A stretch of 10,777 nucleotides of DNA from Methanocorpusculum sp. (GTDB taxonomy: Archaea > Halobacteriota > Methanomicrobia > Methanomicrobiales > Methanocorpusculaceae): positions 1-10,777 of the forward strand of contig JAGARL010000208.1 of the NCBI GenBank assembly GCA_017622255.1, written 5' to 3'. The number at the start of each line of letters is the position of its first letter. Positions within the stretch are counted from its first letter, which is position 1. The notes under the pieces were generated by a model, which ran no database searches, was not told the origin of the DNA, and worked only from the letters and a program-made list of their open reading frames with translations. The position numbers and the translations under genes are program-made. Shown here in pieces: positions 5,997 to 10,678 of the stretch.

Positions 5997-6287
5997 GCCC
6001 CCCTCAGGATTTAAAACTGTCCCTTTGGAAACAGTCGTTTATAGCCTGATTTTTGCCGGTTTGCGGACTTTGCTTGGACTTCAAAAAACCCCCTGCAAAC
6101 GTGAATTCGGTATTCATGACACAAGCGGGGGTGGATGGTGTGTGGGGTGTTTGGAAGTTGGGTTGCAACCCGCGCATGAATTCTCTGTTTTTCCAGCGTA
6201 TTTTCCGGCGCGCTTTGCGGAGTTTTGGAGATTTTGCGATTGGGCTGTTTTTGTGGGGATTTTGGTTGTTTTTTGGAGGATTGATTG
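5997..6287. other. Gene-less stretch, no supported CDS
   Basis: No recognisable protein. Contents: an imperfect hairpin with ACTGT at 6016-6020 and ACAGT at 6031-6035; a perfect 12-base palindrome GGGTTGCAACCC at 6160-6171; and a G+T-rich plus strand from about 6120 to 6287. An open frame with a hydrophobic tail (ATG 6116 or 6176, stop 6317-6319) runs into the palindrome at 6288-6380 and has no Shine-Dalgarno or known relative, so it was not called. Confidence 0.5.
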
Positions 6288-6380
6288 CCCGTCGCTGCCG
6301 CTCGCTATCGCACGGCTAACCGCCGTGCTCACGGCTTGAGCCTTCGGCTCTCGCCAACCGCGGCGGCTGACCGCGACGGG
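6288..6380. repeat. G+C-rich branched palindrome, left island boundary
   Basis: The outer stem is CCCGTCGC (6288-6295) with GCGACGGG (6373-6380). Inside it GCCGC (6297-6301) can pair with GCGGC (6363-6367). Two hairpins sit within: GCACGGC/GCCGTGC (6310-6316 and 6322-6328, loop TAACC) and GAGCC/GGCTC (6338-6342 and 6346-6350). It resembles the palindrome at 10621-10663 in its outer stem, inner GCCGC/GCGGC stem and flanks (GATTG before, GGGAAAAA versus GGGAATAA after), with one compensated T-A to C-G change in the outer stem. Probably a dispersed palindromic element; structured RNA is possible. No terminal duplications are evident. Confidence 0.6.
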
Positions 6381-6401
6381 AAAAATATGGTTTGGTTTTT
6401 C

Positions 6402-6409
6402 TTTTAAAT
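6402..6409 (+). promoter_or_regulatory. Possible TATA box for leader A
   Basis: TTTTAAAT in the A/T-rich gap between the palindrome and the conserved leader. A start about 26 bases on would be near 6432, about a dozen bases before the leader homology begins at 6445. Confidence 0.35.
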
Positions 6410-6444
6410 CTGTATTTGTGGGTTGATTGGATTTTAGTGGTCTT

Positions 6445-6714
6445 CCGTCGGGCTACAAAAATACAAGCCGCTCCTTCGTCTTCGGTCTTCGCGGAGCTTA
6501 CCGCTCCGCTTCGACCTGCAGACTCGGCGCGTCTGTCTTTTTCTTTACGCCCTCCTTAGTAGCGTGGAGTTGGCGGCGCACAGGCGTTCACCCGCGAGAG
6601 GATAATGCCCTCGGTCTTGTCGCTTCGCTCCAATCCCGCGAGCAATATCGTCTCGCGGCTTGTACGCATGCTGTGTCAAGCCCGCCGGTTGTCTGGTTGG
6701 CTTTGGAGTCATGT
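6445..6714 (+). ncRNA. Conserved structured RNA leader of GxxExxY gene, copy A
   Basis: 270 bases, about 82% identical by hand alignment to the 270-base leader at 10283-10552 on the other strand. Elements in order: hairpin GGTC-TTC-GCGGAGC-TTACC-GCTCCGC-TTC-GACC (6484-6516), identical in both copies; stem CGCC-CTCC (6548-6555) with GGAG-TT-GGCG (6566-6575); long hairpin CCGCGAGA-G-GATAATGC (6592-6608) with GCAATATC-G-TCTCGCGG (6642-6658); hairpin GGCTTG-T-ACGCA/TGTGT-CAAGCC (6657-6682); small CCGG-TTGT-CTGG hairpin (6685-6696) just before the GGAG. Four pairs of the long hairpin's outer stem are replaced by other Watson-Crick pairs in copy B, so pairing, not sequence, is conserved. An open frame runs through this copy but is broken by indels in copy B, so it is not coding. 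Function unknown: cis regulation of the downstream ORF, or an RNA partner of its protein. Confidence 0.65.
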
Positions 6715-7092
6715 ATGAAAAAGTTAGATGTGAACTCAGATATGTACAGAATTGTCGGATGCGCCATGAAAGTAAGACACAATCTTGGAAACGGATTTTC
6801 CGAGAGTGTGTATGAGAAAGCATTCCAGATGGAGTTACAGGATGCAGGTTTTTCGGTGAGACTGCAGGTTCGGATTCCGGTTTTCTACAAAGGAGTAAAT
6901 CTGCATCGAGATTATGTGGCAGATGTGTTTGTGAATGATTCTATTATTGTAGAGTTAAAGGCGGTTCGCTGTCTTGGAAAGATTCACGAGGAACAGATAG
7001 GACATTATCTGAAAGCGACTGGTTTGAAGGAGGGGCTTCTGGTGAATTTCGGAAATGCACGAGGGTTGGAGTGGAGATATGTTTCTCCCTAA
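6715..7092 (+). CDS. GxxExxY protein, PD-(D/E)XK nuclease-like, copy A
   Basis: 125 residues, the standard length of the GxxExxY family (TIGR04256; PDDEXK_3 in Pfam). The name motif is G27-FS-E30-SV-Y33. A PD-(D/E)XK-type active site is visible: E30 in the first helix, D70 in DYVAD, and E80-L-K82 in IIVELKA. The end is GLLVNFGN ... LEWRYVSP. The biochemical role of the family is not established. The start is ATG 6715, six bases after GGAG (6705-6708). The same spacing occurs in copy B, where the nearby upstream ATG (6711) is CTG, so ATG 6711 is not the start. By hand count 82 of 125 residues match copy B. It follows its RNA leader directly and precedes the restriction gene by 79 bases on the same strand. 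Confidence 0.88.
   Translation: MKKLDVNSDMYRIVGCAMKVRHNLGNGFSESVYEKAFQMELQDAGFSVRLQVRIPVFYKGVNLHRDYVADVFVNDSIIVELKAVRCLGKIHEEQIGHYLKATGLKEGLLVNFGNARGLEWRYVSP
7073..7088 (+). other. Small hairpin over the end of GxxExxY copy A
   Basis: GGAGA (7073-7077) pairs with TCTCC (7084-7088), overlapping the last codons. Copy B has a stronger hairpin at the same place (GGAGAG-TTTA-CTCTCC). A similar GGAGA...TTCTCCCTAA string recurs after the restriction gene at 9701. There is no T run, so termination here is doubtful. Confidence 0.4.
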
Positions 7093-7123
7093 TTCCTCAT
7101 ATTATCGTTTTCAAAACAACAAT

Positions 7124-7136
7124 CCCAAATACTTAT
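7124..7136 (+). promoter_or_regulatory. Possible promoter of the restriction gene
   Basis: CCCAAATACTTAT, BRE-like then TATA-like, would start transcription near 7157, 15 bases before the chosen ATG 7172. The gene could instead be read through from the GxxExxY transcript. Confidence 0.35.
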
Positions 7137-7171
7137 CGTCTGTCCCGTCAACAAAACATATACTGAGGAAA

Positions 7172-9697
7172 ATGAAAGGGGAAGAAACAAGACTTACAAA
7201 AATGATTAAAAATGCAGACCAACTCTGCATTCCAGTTTATCAGAGGGATTATAACTGGGGGAAAGATCAATGCAGACAACTCTATGATGACCTAACCTCA
7301 GTTATCATCTATAACCGCTCAACCCACTTTTTTGGAAGCGTGGTTGATGCACAAGACCCAAATGGCGGAAAAGATGATTATATTATTATTGACGGACAGC
7401 AGAGAATCACCACCATATCTCTTCTCCTTCTTGCCTTCAAGAATCTCCTCCTCAAAAATGAACTTATCCTCACTGAATACACACATGACAATCTCCTCAA
7501 AAGAGTAGATGCCATACTTATAAACGAGGATGAAGAGATACGCCTTAATCCTGCTCCAAACAGTAAAACAGCCTACTTTGCCCTTTTCAAAGATGAGGAA
7601 GATTTCATACAGGATTCAAACGTTACTGCAAACTACACTTACTTCTTAAACCGTTTACGGGAAGACAAAGAACAGTTTTCCGCAGACCAAATATGGAATG
7701 CAGTAAACTCCTTAAACATCATTGATATCTACTTGGAAGCAGGAGATGACGCACAACTCATCTTTGAAAGTCTCAACTCCACAGGTCTTGCCCTTTCCGA
7801 AGGAGACAAAATCAGAAACTACCTCATGATGTCCCTTTCCATCAAAGAACAGGAGAGGTACTATGAGGAATACTGGCGCAAAATTGAAGCCAACACAAAT
7901 CCTCGAACAGATTTCTTCATCAGAGACTTCCTCACTATAAAAACCCGCAGAACTCCTAATCGGGATAACATCTACAACGAGTTTAAATCCTACATTAGAA
8001 ACCTCAACAAAGAAGAAATCATTTCAGAGATGCTTAGATATTCCAAGTACTGCCTATGGGTTTACCACCCAGAAAAAGCAGATGCAGGAATTCGTGAGGC
8101 ATTAACCACTCTTAGAAAACTCGACTTTGGTGTTGCAGACCCTTACCTCTTCTCGCTTCTTGATACTTACAAAAATGGAGAACTCAAAGAAATAGATGTA
8201 AGTACATCTGTAGGTATTATCGAGAACTATCTGTTTAGAAGAAAAATCTGTGAGGTCGCAACAAATGCACTAAACAAAATCTTTACCACTCTACACAGTG
8301 ATGTCATAAAACTCAAAGGAAACAGTGAGGATTATTCAGAGCGCCTAAGATATATTCTCCTGAAAAAAGAGGGAAGCGGAAGATTCCCCAGAGATGAAGA
8401 GTTCGTTGAACAACTTCAAACACGTGACATCTACCACTCTATGACGGACAAATATAAGATGTATCTTCTTGAACGTCTGGAACAGTTTGGAAATGATGAG
8501 AAAATTGATATATCCTATCTTATGGAGAATGGGAAATGCAGTATCGAACATGTCATGCCGCAGACACTCACACCCCAGTGGATTGAAGATTTGGGTGGTG
8601 AGGAAGACGCAGAGAGAATTCACAAAACTTGGCTTCATCGTCTTGGAAATCTCTCACTTACTGCATACAACTCCCGATACAGCAATTCACCATTTACAAC
8701 AAAACTTACTATTGAGAATGGATTTAAGGACAGTAAGTTCACCTTAAACAAATTCATCGCAGCCTGTGATAAATGGACAGAGGAAGAAATTATCCAAAGA
8801 ACGGCCTATCTCATAGACCGTTCAAAGAAAATCTGGCCTGAAATCACAACCTCCTTTGTTGAAGAAAAGAAACGGGAAGGAGACTTTATCAGATTGGGAA
8901 GTGGATTCAGTTTTACCGGAACTCAGATTGTCGGCTTTAACTTTGAGAATACGTTCTATGAAGTATCATCATGGAAGGAGTTTTTAGTAACTGCGTTACA
9001 GATTCTCTATGATATCGACAAAGAACCTCTGCAAAATATTGCTTTGAGTTCCAACAGTTCCGGTCCGATGAATTCTCTTGTTTCGAGTGAACACGATTTG
9101 GAGTTCTGGAAGATTCAGAAGGTCAATGAAGATGTGTTTGTTAATGTTCATAGTTCGACAGCAGATAAGTTGAGGCTGCTCATATCCTGCCTTGATATTT
9201 ATCATATACCTCCATCATCAATTCAGATTAGAGTTAAGGAAGGGGCAGTAGGGACTGAAGGAAGATATCATGCGAGACGTAGATTCTGGGAAATTCTTCT
9301 CCCCGTAATCAACGAGTTAACCCCTTCCTTCTCGAACCGTTCCCCATCATGGGACCCGTGGATGACTGCCGGAGCAGGTGTTCGCGGAGGTCTTGAATAT
9401 AGGCTGTATTTCAGCTCTAAAATTTGTTCAACTGGATTCCAATTCAACATGCGTGACCGGGAAGAGAATCTGCAGTATTTTGATGCAGTTTTTTCCCGAA
9501 AGGATGAGATTGAGTCGGCACTTGGAGTTGAGCTATCATGGGAAAGACATGAAAACCAGAGGTTATCTATGGTTAATGTCATTAGAACCGATTTACGTAT
9601 TGATAATGAAGAAGACTGGGAAGAAGCAGTGACCTTCATGTCTGAATGGCATTCAAAAATCTATGCTGTTTTCCAACCGATTTTGGAAAAACTTTGA
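7172..9697 (+). CDS. GmrSD-like restriction protein: DUF262 + DUF1524 (HNH) + DUF4268-like
   Basis: 841 residues. N-terminal DUF262 (GmrS-like, ParB-related): IPVYQRDYNW (20-29), IIDGQQRITT (72-81) and FESLNSTGLALSEGDKIRN (198-216); in this family the DGQQR region acts in nucleotide hydrolysis and DNA processing. Middle DUF1524, a His-Me finger/HNH nuclease: SIEHVMPQTLTPQW (457-470, H460), then HRLGNLSLTAYNSRYSNSPF (489-508, N493, N500). A linker module with FYEVSSWKEF (595-604) follows. The last 140 residues (RRRFWEILLPVI ... NRSPS ... WER ... FQPILEKL) match DUF4268. Type IV enzymes of the GmrSD group cut modified phage DNA, so antiphage defence is likely; the target modification is unknown. 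ATG 7172 starts the family-like N-terminus (MKGEETRLTKMIKNADQ) after GAGG; the 39 codons before it overlap the GxxExxY gene. Codon style seems to change near 8900. Confidence 0.88.
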   Translation: MKGEETRLTKMIKNADQLCIPVYQRDYNWGKDQCRQLYDDLTSVIIYNRSTHFFGSVVDAQDPNGGKDDYIIIDGQQRITTISLLLLAFKNLLLKNELILTEYTHDNLLKRVDAILINEDEEIRLNPAPNSKTAYFALFKDEEDFIQDSNVTANYTYFLNRLREDKEQFSADQIWNAVNSLNIIDIYLEAGDDAQLIFESLNSTGLALSEGDKIRNYLMMSLSIKEQERYYEEYWRKIEANTNPRTDFFIRDFLTIKTRRTPNRDNIYNEFKSYIRNLNKEEIISEMLRYSKYCLWVYHPEKADAGIREALTTLRKLDFGVADPYLFSLLDTYKNGELKEIDVSTSVGIIENYLFRRKICEVATNALNKIFTTLHSDVIKLKGNSEDYSERLRYILLKKEGSGRFPRDEEFVEQLQTRDIYHSMTDKYKMYLLERLEQFGNDEKIDISYLMENGKCSIEHVMPQTLTPQWIEDLGGEEDAERIHKTWLHRLGNLSLTAYNSRYSNSPFTTKLTIENGFKDSKFTLNKFIAACDKWTEEEIIQRTAYLIDRSKKIWPEITTSFVEEKKREGDFIRLGSGFSFTGTQIVGFNFENTFYEVSSWKEFLVTALQILYDIDKEPLQNIALSSNSSGPMNSLVSSEHDLEFWKIQKVNEDVFVNVHSSTADKLRLLISCLDIYHIPPSSIQIRVKEGAVGTEGRYHARRRFWEILLPVINELTPSFSNRSPSWDPWMTAGAGVRGGLEYRLYFSSKICSTGFQFNMRDREENLQYFDAVFSRKDEIESALGVELSWERHENQRLSMVNVIRTDLRIDNEEDWEEAVTFMSEWHSKIYAVFQPILEKL

Positions 9698-9700
9698 TAC

Positions 9701-9718
9701 GGAGAGGATTACTTCTCC
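9701..9718 (+). other. Hairpin after the restriction gene, similar to the GxxExxY end
   Basis: GGAGA (9701-9705) with TCTCC (9714-9718), then CTAACTC. It shares GGAGA and TTCTCCCTAA with positions 7073-7092, the end of GxxExxY copy A. It could be a remnant of a module end or a chance match. Confidence 0.35.
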
Positions 9719-9758
9719 CTAACTCTTAGGACAACACAGACGTAAAACCAGAATAGAG

Positions 9759-9793
9759 ATGAGGCAGAAATATGCAAAAATCTGCCCCATTTT
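9759..9793 (+). terminator. Stem-loop plus T run after the restriction gene
   Basis: ATGAGGCAGA (9759-9768) pairs with TCTGCCCCAT (9781-9790) with one A-C mismatch, followed by TTT. Position and shape fit a terminator for the plus-strand gene that ends at 9697. Confidence 0.45.
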
Positions 9794-9797
9794 CGTA

Positions 9798-9812
9798 TAT
9801 GTTTTAAACATA
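9798..9812. other. A/T-rich palindrome TATGTTT-T-AAACATA
   Basis: Perfect seven-base arms around one T. It lies between convergent genes, so a protein-binding site or a second termination structure are both possible. Confidence 0.35.
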
Positions 9813-9829
9813 CACTACAAGGAGAAATA

Positions 9830-9857
9830 GGTGGGAAATCTCAGAAAGAGTCCCACC
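9830..9857. other. Stem-loop GGTGGGA/TCCCACC between convergent genes
   Basis: Arms 9830-9836 and 9851-9857 are perfect. An inner CTC/GAG stem (9840-9842, 9848-9850) stacks next to them, with a three-base bulge and an AGAAA loop. No T run follows on either strand and no ORF is present. A small RNA or transcript-end structure is possible. Confidence 0.35.
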
Positions 9858-9899
9858 ACATAAACAAATTGGATATTATACATGATAATACTAATAGAT

Positions 9900-9925
9900 A
9901 AAAATCATGGAGAGTAAACTCTCCA
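9900..9925 (-). terminator. Hairpin plus T5 at the end of GxxExxY copy B
   Basis: TGGAGAG/CTCTCCA (9908-9914, 9919-9925) forms seven pairs with a four-base loop over the last codons. Five T follow on the minus strand after the TGA stop. The stem overlaps the coding end, as in copy A. Confidence 0.5.
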
Positions 9926-10282
9926 CTCCAACCTTTTCATATTTCCGAAGTTCACCAGAAGTCCATCTGATATCCCGGTACATTTCAGATAACTTTCAAT
10001 CTGCTTTTCGTGTGCCTTACCCAAACCGGAAACCGCTTTCAGTTCCACAATCACCTTTCCATCAACCACCAAATCCGCAAAGAAATCCTTACCCAAATCA
10101 ATTCCCTTGTAAAACACCGGAATCTTCACCTGACGCTTCACTGAAAATCCGGCTTCCAGAAGCTCCCACTCAAGTGCCTTCTCGTACACTGATTCCAGAT
10201 AACCGGACTTCAAAGTGTTGTACACCTTCATAGCACATCCAACGATTCGATACATATCTGAGTCAACATCTAACTTTTTCAT
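9905..10282 (-). CDS. GxxExxY protein, PD-(D/E)XK nuclease-like, copy B
   Basis: 125 residues, exactly as long as copy A and 66% identical by hand count (82/125). Motif G27-YL-E30-SV-Y33, with active-site residues D70 in DFFAD and E80-L-K82 in VIVELKA. Differences cluster at residues 21-30, 61-79 and 85-90, while the predicted catalytic residues are kept, so both copies look functional. The start ATG 10282-10280 is six bases after GGAG. An in-frame ATG at 10342 would add 20 residues from the conserved leader and was rejected. It is convergent with the restriction gene across about 207 bases, while copy A points into that gene, so the two modules form an inverted pair. Confidence 0.88.
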   Translation of the reverse strand: MKKLDVDSDMYRIVGCAMKVYNTLKSGYLESVYEKALEWELLEAGFSVKRQVKIPVFYKGIDLGKDFFADLVVDGKVIVELKAVSGLGKAHEKQIESYLKCTGISDGLLVNFGNMKRLEWRVYSP

Positions 10283-10552
10283 ACAGAACTCCGAAGCCAA
10301 CCAGACAACCGGCGGGCCTACAAGGCTGGCGTGACAGCCCAAGGATGATATTGCCTTCGGGATTGGAACGAAGCGACAAGACCGAGGGCATTATCTTCCT
10401 TGGGATAGAACGCCTGTGCCCCGCCAACTCCCCCGCATTAAGGAGGGCGTAAAGAAAACAGGCGAGTGCGCCGAGTCTGCAGGTCGAAGCGGAGCGGTAA
10501 GCTCCGCGAAGACCGAAGGCGAAGGAGCAGTCGAATGTTTTTAGCCCGACGG
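10283..10552 (-). ncRNA. Conserved structured RNA leader of GxxExxY gene, copy B
   Basis: 270 bases, the inverted counterpart of the leader at 6445-6714. Hairpin 10482-10514 is identical to copy A. The long hairpin pairs CCCAAGGA-A-GATAATGC (10404-10388) with GCAATATC-A-TCCTTGGG (10354-10338). Compared with copy A four outer pairs changed on both strands, and the central G-G mismatch became A-A. The CGCC-CTCC / GGAG-TT-GGCG stem is kept with a different ten-base loop. The hairpin after the long stem is redesigned as GGCTG-TCACGC-CAGCC. No T run occurs inside, so the leader is probably transcribed together with the ORF. Coding potential is not conserved with copy A. Confidence 0.65.
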
Positions 10553-10620
10553 AAAAACAGCAAAAGAGCATCAACTCGCCTTTACTGCGGAGGCTGTGGA
10601 CAAATAAAAAATCCGGATTG

Positions 10621-10663
10621 CCCGCCGAAAAAGCCGCGGCGATTAGCCAAGCGGCTCGGCGGG
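10621..10663. repeat. G+C-rich palindrome, right island boundary
   Basis: Stems: CCCGCCG (10621-10627) with CGGCGGG (10657-10663); AGCCGC (10632-10637) with GCGGCT (10651-10656); GGC (10638-10640) with GCC (10646-10648); loop GATTA. Related to 6288-6380 and in the same plus-strand orientation. On the minus strand it lies downstream of the gene at the right edge and is followed by CCGGATTTTTT, so it might also help terminate that transcript. Confidence 0.6.
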
Positions 10664-10678
10664 AATAAAATCCTACAG

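Follow-up and report, generated by a model that had tools for sequence, protein, structure and literature searches.

Judged from comparison with related genomes, the two copies of the predicted structured region form the two ends, convergent and not equivalent, of a single mobile unit with a restriction-type gene as cargo. The window (the whole stretch of DNA analysed, 10,777 nt) makes up contig C155 in an assembly of 1.50 Mb that is fragmented and 79.5% complete, and left of the unit it holds ordinary neighbours, namely polyphosphate kinase, biotin ligase and class III aminotransferase genes. The original prediction described two regions of exactly 270 bases each, which we recovered at 6445-6714 (plus strand, copy A) and 10283-10552 (minus strand, copy B); it put their identity at about 82%, and we count 235 of 277 aligned columns (84.8%), with blastn giving 83.1% over 267. 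As it also stated, the leaders are more alike than the proteins that they precede, the window's two GxxExxY proteins being 66% identical to each other. The structured feature reaches beyond 6445-6714, out to terminal hairpins on either side, and the parts of the unit are as follows:

6288..6380, no strand assigned: terminal hairpin at the unit's outer left end (inverted repeat CCGTCGC..GCGACGGG)
6381..6714, minus strand: left structured RNA (or single-stranded DNA), outward strand, containing the originally predicted feature (from folding energies)
6592..6658, minus strand: covarying main hairpin, left (match of model R1 at 6575-6673, minus strand, 102.6 bits; pair counts)
6715..7092, plus strand: GxxExxY protein, S clade, PD-(D/E)XK-like (TIGR04256 129.7 bits, PF13366; clade support 100/100)
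7172..9697, plus strand: cargo, GmrSD-type restriction-like protein (GmrSD_N, GmrSD_C and DUF4268 in Pfam; PADLOC models Orf5, HEC-06 and mREase_IV)
9905..10282, minus strand: GxxExxY protein, T type (TIGR04256 134.2 bits; groups with L036m on a weak branch, 84/64)
10283..10620, plus strand: right structured RNA (or single-stranded DNA), outward strand (10283-10662, plus strand, -171.1 kcal/mol, z -9.5)
10338..10404, plus strand: covarying main hairpin, right (match of model R1 at 10323-10422, plus strand, 100.5 bits)
10621..10663, no strand assigned: terminal hairpin at the unit's outer right end (CCCGCCG..CGGCGGG)

Both small ORFs are clear members of TIGR04256 and PF13366, scoring far above the curated TIGR04256 cut-off of 35 bits, and PF13366 is the sole Pfam domain in each. 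The G-x-x-E-x-x-Y motif reads GFSESVY and GYLESVY in the two proteins, and its E and Y are invariant across 32 GxxExxY sequences, as are D70, E80 and K82; the D and E-x-K residues of PD-(D/E)XK are present, and we take these three positions to be the catalytic residues of PD-(D/E)XK nucleases. Pfam finds no RuvC or HNH nuclease domain in either window protein and Rfam, at the gathering score, no HEARO match in the window, in contrast to the HEARO/IsrB and TnpB systems to which the original prediction drew a likeness. Among solved structures there was no convincing relative by sequence, the best profile match (E 0.0017, over half of the length) being judged chance, and the passages retrieved from open-access full text hold only passing mentions of the family.

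The strand that folds better is the opposite, outward-facing one, and for this reason the proposed mRNA leader with cis regulation is not supported. The outward strand is favoured in all 30 distinct cores (mean gain 10.9 kcal/mol) and in 14 of 15 full modules; at 6445-6714 it reaches -119.4 compared with -110.7 for the gene strand. For the region 10283-10662 (380 nt), RNA parameters give z -9.5 for the outward strand and z -4.3 for the gene strand, while DNA parameters give -5.8 and -4.75. Across 46 distinct rows, the 1178 pair cells divide into 1058 Watson-Crick, 91 G-U, 5 A-C and 24 other, where the pair model, built on the outward strand, somewhat favours that strand in the comparison of G-U with A-C, and 39 of the 91 G-U cells come from one pair position. 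The internal loops are TC/TC when read along the gene strand but GA/GA, a motif that forms sheared pairs, along the outward one. Since outward folding wins in every core, G-U exceeds A-C by 91 to 5 and the z-scores differ as given, the feature reads as an outward-facing structured RNA or single-stranded DNA and not an mRNA leader, although the strand tests show only which strand folds and fit RNA and single-stranded DNA alike. We consider it very improbable that the GxxExxY mRNA begins with a structured leader acting in cis: the region does lie directly upstream of the ORF, its gene strand also beats shuffles (z -4.0 and -4.4), and in the left copy over 395 nt, the sole exception among the 15 full modules, the gene strand is slightly better (-160.0 vs -157.0), but the 30 cores point the other way, the GA/GA loops exist only on the outward strand, and on the gene strand the 91 G-U cells would become A-C mismatches.

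The long hairpin is as originally described: in copy A, CCGCGAGA at 6592-6599 pairs with TCTCGCGG at 6651-6658, in copy B 10338-10345 pairs with 10397-10404, the mismatch beside the changed pairs is G-G in A and A-A in B on the gene strand, and the inner stem is constant between the copies. The four compensating pairs are real changes, but they reflect two circulating versions of the eight-pair stem (24 and 11 of 49 rows) and not four fresh events. Both versions recur in every end type (L, R and S/T), which makes it likely that ends have exchanged sequence. The inner three pairs occur in nine triplet combinations, seven of them all Watson-Crick, one with a G-U (7 rows) and one with a G-G (1 row), and on these alignments the inner triplet is independent support for covariation.

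Alignment A3 comprises 29 relatives, a row with a 50-nt insertion having been omitted. Of its 753 cells 98.5% pair, falling to 37-54% when the 3′ partners are slid, and the predicted selection on a nucleic-acid structure tied to the GxxExxY gene is supported. Cells changed on both sides number 135 compared with 45±5 in shuffles, and the covariation score is 0.512 compared with 0.181±0.012, with 0 of 500 shuffles as high in either case, under a shuffle control that ignores the relatedness of the sequences. By pairs the excess is only modest, 15 of 26 showing a change on both sides (shuffles 12.1±0.9; 2 of 500 as high), and further pair types show none (31 vs 31.4). The terminal hairpins also covary, with 127/128 and 114/116 cells paired and no strand bias; the second hairpin of R-type ends, as aligned here, is less well paired (126/154 cells). 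The match to a known RNA family that the original prediction asked about did not appear, as nothing in the window reaches the Rfam gathering score, and the tRNA/tmRNA scan returned nothing. Sub-threshold Rfam matches in copy B, such as mir-9449 (E 0.004), belong to unrelated families and lie far below their cut-offs.

Stems that vary in sequence while keeping their pairing, palindromic terminal hairpins lacking strand bias, and one strand that folds much better than the other, as it does in attC, would all suit ends that work as folded single-stranded DNA, that is, as recombination sites recognised by structure in the manner of attC or REP, which GxxExxY would cut or resolve and for which RNA would be unneeded. 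We rate this as rather unlikely, given that the strand gap is larger with RNA than with DNA parameters, G-U pairs are frequent, the region is large and multi-branched, and a Pfam scan of 41 cargo proteins found no transposase, Y1/HUH or tyrosine recombinase domain.

Each end module spans ~0.8 kb and consists of a terminal hairpin, ~350-450 nt of structured outward strand and, directly beside it, an inward-pointing GxxExxY gene, the one conserved ORF of the modules. Homology of the window's left copy to other modules stops 440-480 nt from the start codon, just past the terminal hairpin. Contig ends cut 4 of 30 modules short of the terminal hairpin; for most others homology ends 390-560 nt from the start codon, close to that hairpin, and several share longer flanks, which are probably orthologous. 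Inspection by eye reveals one more hairpin ~30 nt outside in seven of ten R ends. No convincing target-site duplication was found in seven two-ended elements with termini placed only approximately. As a separate observation, 5 of 32 leaders (in L036, L040, L042, L043 and L046, at one GxxExxY gene each) carry an extra palindromic insertion between RNA region and start codon, and extra hairpin sequences lie within the RNA region or terminal hairpin of L038m, L044m, L044p and L147 (GGCGAGGGAGCG..-type) and of L039p and L040m (another type); they apparently occupy loops and resemble small elements compatible with the fold.

For residues common between clades, 85% of codons are identical over codons 1-10 compared with 50% over codons 15-118, which means that nucleotide constraint may extend into the GxxExxY ORF, and an AT-rich preference at translation starts could be part of the cause. 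This conservation, and the head-to-head adjacency of RNA and gene, would fit an addiction or control module in which the outward RNA acts as antisense at the 5′ end of GxxExxY mRNA and restrains a harmful nuclease, and in which two such modules stabilise the restriction genes, which are themselves addictive. Simple antisense control, however, needs no compensatory, multi-branched structure, and the terminal hairpins and heterotypic convergent ends would go unexplained, so that we hold such a module to be doubtful.

TIGR04256 has 91 matches in 16 of 25 Methanocorpusculum genomes, and among the 78 near-full-length ones, counting neighbours within 12 kb, there are 17 neighbouring GxxExxY pairs: 16 convergent, 1 tandem and none divergent, the 16 being not all independent because some share a cassette. 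The tandem pair (L096, G013:C43) has no R1 match and is of the kind that lacks the RNA, while all 16 convergent pairs lie in the five genomes with R1-detected RNA (G000, G007, G012, G013 and G014). R1 matches both ends in 12 of these pairs, and the other four (L035, L045, L047 and L049) have one end at a contig end. In a tree of 35 GxxExxY proteins, an R clade (15 rows, support 100/99) holds all 11 genes with an R-typed leader, an L clade has 14 rows (100/98), and the S clade, to which the window's left protein belongs, has 3. Every one of the 16 pairs joins two protein types, 13 being L+R, two S+T and one (L041) a long-branch protein, which has an L-type leader, with R. A yak-gut contig (L056, JAGBSZ010000010.1) adds one more convergent pair, the 17th, whose proteins tblastn types as T-like and R-like. 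That contig carries a Methanocorpusculum-type pair though it is labelled Bacteroidaceae, and is probably mis-binned.

In 12 of the 16 pairs the ends enclose restriction-type genes. Besides GmrSD in the window, the cargo comprises an HsdR-N-like protein (L036); MmeI (L038, L045 and L048); DpnI (L040, with a DpnD-like partner, and L039 and L046 by domain match plus DNA match); type I methylase and specificity genes with HsdR (L043) or with Abi_alpha and no HsdR among the proteins scanned (L041); and cytosine methylases (L042 and L047), L042 also matching a type II REase model. Among the ORFs scanned, which did not include every small one, L035, L037, L044 and L049 showed no restriction gene. L049 encodes an IetA-like ATPase; its stretch 3590-12099, which holds SPFH, zinc-ribbon, TPR and IetA-like AAA domains, may be a defence system not yet described. 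Throughout the five carrier genomes, MmeI matches (3/3) and DpnI matches (3/3) all fall within pairs, as do 4 of 14 N6_Mtase places, two of them MmeI genes; a fifth N6_Mtase place lies in the decayed unit of G012:C22.

Sites with and without the unit speak for its mobility. In G007 the alignment leaves 114 bases unaligned at the site of the window's unit, compared with 4457 in the window (6220-10676), from which we conclude that the whole two-ended unit is missing there, the empty site not being base-precise. In G013 the site is occupied by an S module whose cargo differs. Within the unit there, L166 674-3705 encodes 806-aa and 191-aa proteins with no Pfam match, and G014 (L052) has ORFs similar to this pair in size and order. 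One DpnI cassette, 90-96% identical, sits between unrelated flanks in G012, G007 and G013, as far as the contigs extend (one G013 end is cut by a contig end). In two cases a site carries other cargo in another genome: L048 and L168 have both flanks in common and differ in cargo, MmeI in one and a complete type I system in the other, and L043 and L044 share the left flank around different cargo, the right flank ending at a contig end. At about 2610-3130 of L147 (G012:C13) there is RNA and no gene, the left terminal hairpin being joined to a right RNA with its right terminal hairpin; L147 is a non-coding, MITE-like copy between two terminal hairpins, and G014 has a full pair there. An alaS-lig site was considered as a clean empty site and dropped, as G013, G014 and G015 hold other filler there. 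Taken as sequence comparisons, these data leave the anatomy and mobility of the cassette well supported.

Could the ends be passive repeats, spread by some other route, between which host homologous recombination swaps cargo while GxxExxY and the RNA serve an unrelated role? The shuffling of stem versions among end types is what this would produce, and in G012 and G014 the flanks at the window's site are rearranged. The left flank there is inverted relative to the right flank in L165 (G012:C11) and L167 (G014:C3), which suggests inversions with breakpoints near the unit. Passive repeats would, however, leave unaccounted for the strong selection on structure, the invariant D, E and K residues and the heterotypic make-up of 16 of 16 pairs, and we therefore think this improbable.

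The association of RNA and gene reaches beyond pairs in a few places. Most single GxxExxY genes examined in the genus have neither the RNA nor a convergent partner: among 16 further loci, 13 lack an R1 match, with proteins 37-50% identical to the window's, and the three that have one are L098 and L104 (leader-type genes; at contig end, decayed) and L109 (of a diverged kind). A diverged, unpaired subfamily of ~50% protein identity (L109 and L140-L143), found through the R1 match itself and weak in the case of L142, has the hairpin upstream and outward of the gene. Since R1 matches thus stand beside single, diverged GxxExxY genes, the association does not depend on pairing. In L140 the hairpin occurs a second time, there with no recognisable gene. 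The distribution is narrow: under stricter filters R1 RNA occurs in 5 of 232 genomes of the class, and among 392 drawn from the phylum the window's own genome is the only one to have it. Searching with the protein yielded 271 relatives (E <= 1e-30), and most of the 120 listed lie on short contigs. By eye, no convergent pair was seen elsewhere in the order outside the window's genome (13 of 70 drawn genomes had matches). Relatives of the T-type protein were absent from viral contigs and phages, and its plasmid relatives (8 records) are all <60% identical.

We tentatively favour, at somewhat less than even confidence, an RNA-protein end module that mobilises or maintains a defence cassette. The cassette would be a two-ended mobile unit whose ends, with different protein types, enclose mostly restriction-type cargo. 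The outward strand would act as RNA, each RNA would bind its own GxxExxY protein, and the two resulting complexes would act on the two ends to move the unit; alternatively, the complexes may cut cassette-free alleles, after which repair would copy the unit in. Homologous recombination via the common ends would then swap cargo. Anatomy, pairing, folding strand, mobility and cargo are seen in the sequence, and we infer outward transcription, nuclease activity of GxxExxY, cooperation of RNA and protein, and the role of two complexes. A more specific form, to which we attach little probability, is an RNA-guided PD-(D/E)XK system in which two RNA-GxxExxY complexes, one per end, cut cassette-free sites and drive copying of the defence cargo; the outward RNA would then run to the edge of the unit, and its 3′ end could carry flanking sequence.

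If the end-module reading is true, antiviral genes would be moved by a route that uses neither a transposase nor an integrase of any recognised kind, and GxxExxY, a widespread family still lacking an explanation, would have a role: it would supply one half of an end module made of RNA and protein. The structured part, >350 nt long, has no Rfam match at threshold, and the cassette makes gain and exchange of archaeal defence genes testable. Titles, abstract openings and passages of the open-access literature (including PMC8934634, PMC12085832, PMC3031569, PMC10035134 and PMC12988326) contain no description of the unit. The unit appears to be a mobile gene cassette of a kind not described before, carried by gut methane-producing archaea. 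We know of no element whose ends consist of a structured RNA and a PD-(D/E)XK gene. The novelty lies in this anatomy, for the general layout, with cargo between inverted ends, follows that of a composite element.

In composite transposons and IS-flanked restriction systems, as presented in passages of PMC3031569, inverted copies bracket restriction genes and move with them. Inverted copies bracket movable cargo here too, but neither the cassette ends nor the scanned cargo contain a transposase, and the ends are heterotypic, each with a structured RNA. In OMEGA systems (TnpB, IscB, IsrB/HEARO), a nuclease-like gene at the border of a mobile element has a large structured RNA as its neighbour. 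The cassette is alike in that its RNA adjoins a nuclease-like gene at the unit edge; in contrast to the RuvC/HNH proteins of OMEGA, however, the protein here is a 125-aa PD-(D/E)XK-like one, and the RNA is antisense to the gene, matches nothing in Rfam at the gathering threshold and could act as a guide only hypothetically. Because a defining feature of each was looked for and not found, we set the cassette apart from both composite transposons and OMEGA. Integron attC sites serve exchangeable cargo and have a structure favoured on one strand, and cassette cargo is likewise exchangeable and one strand favoured in folding, whereas the cassette ends are far larger, multi-branched, present on both sides and each provided with a gene, and the scanned cargo has no integrase domain. 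Homing endonucleases of the PD-(D/E)XK I-Ssp6803I type reside in group I introns and in this way also tie a small PD-(D/E)XK nuclease to a folded RNA, but the cassette, which matches no Rfam intron family, is intergenic and carries cargo.
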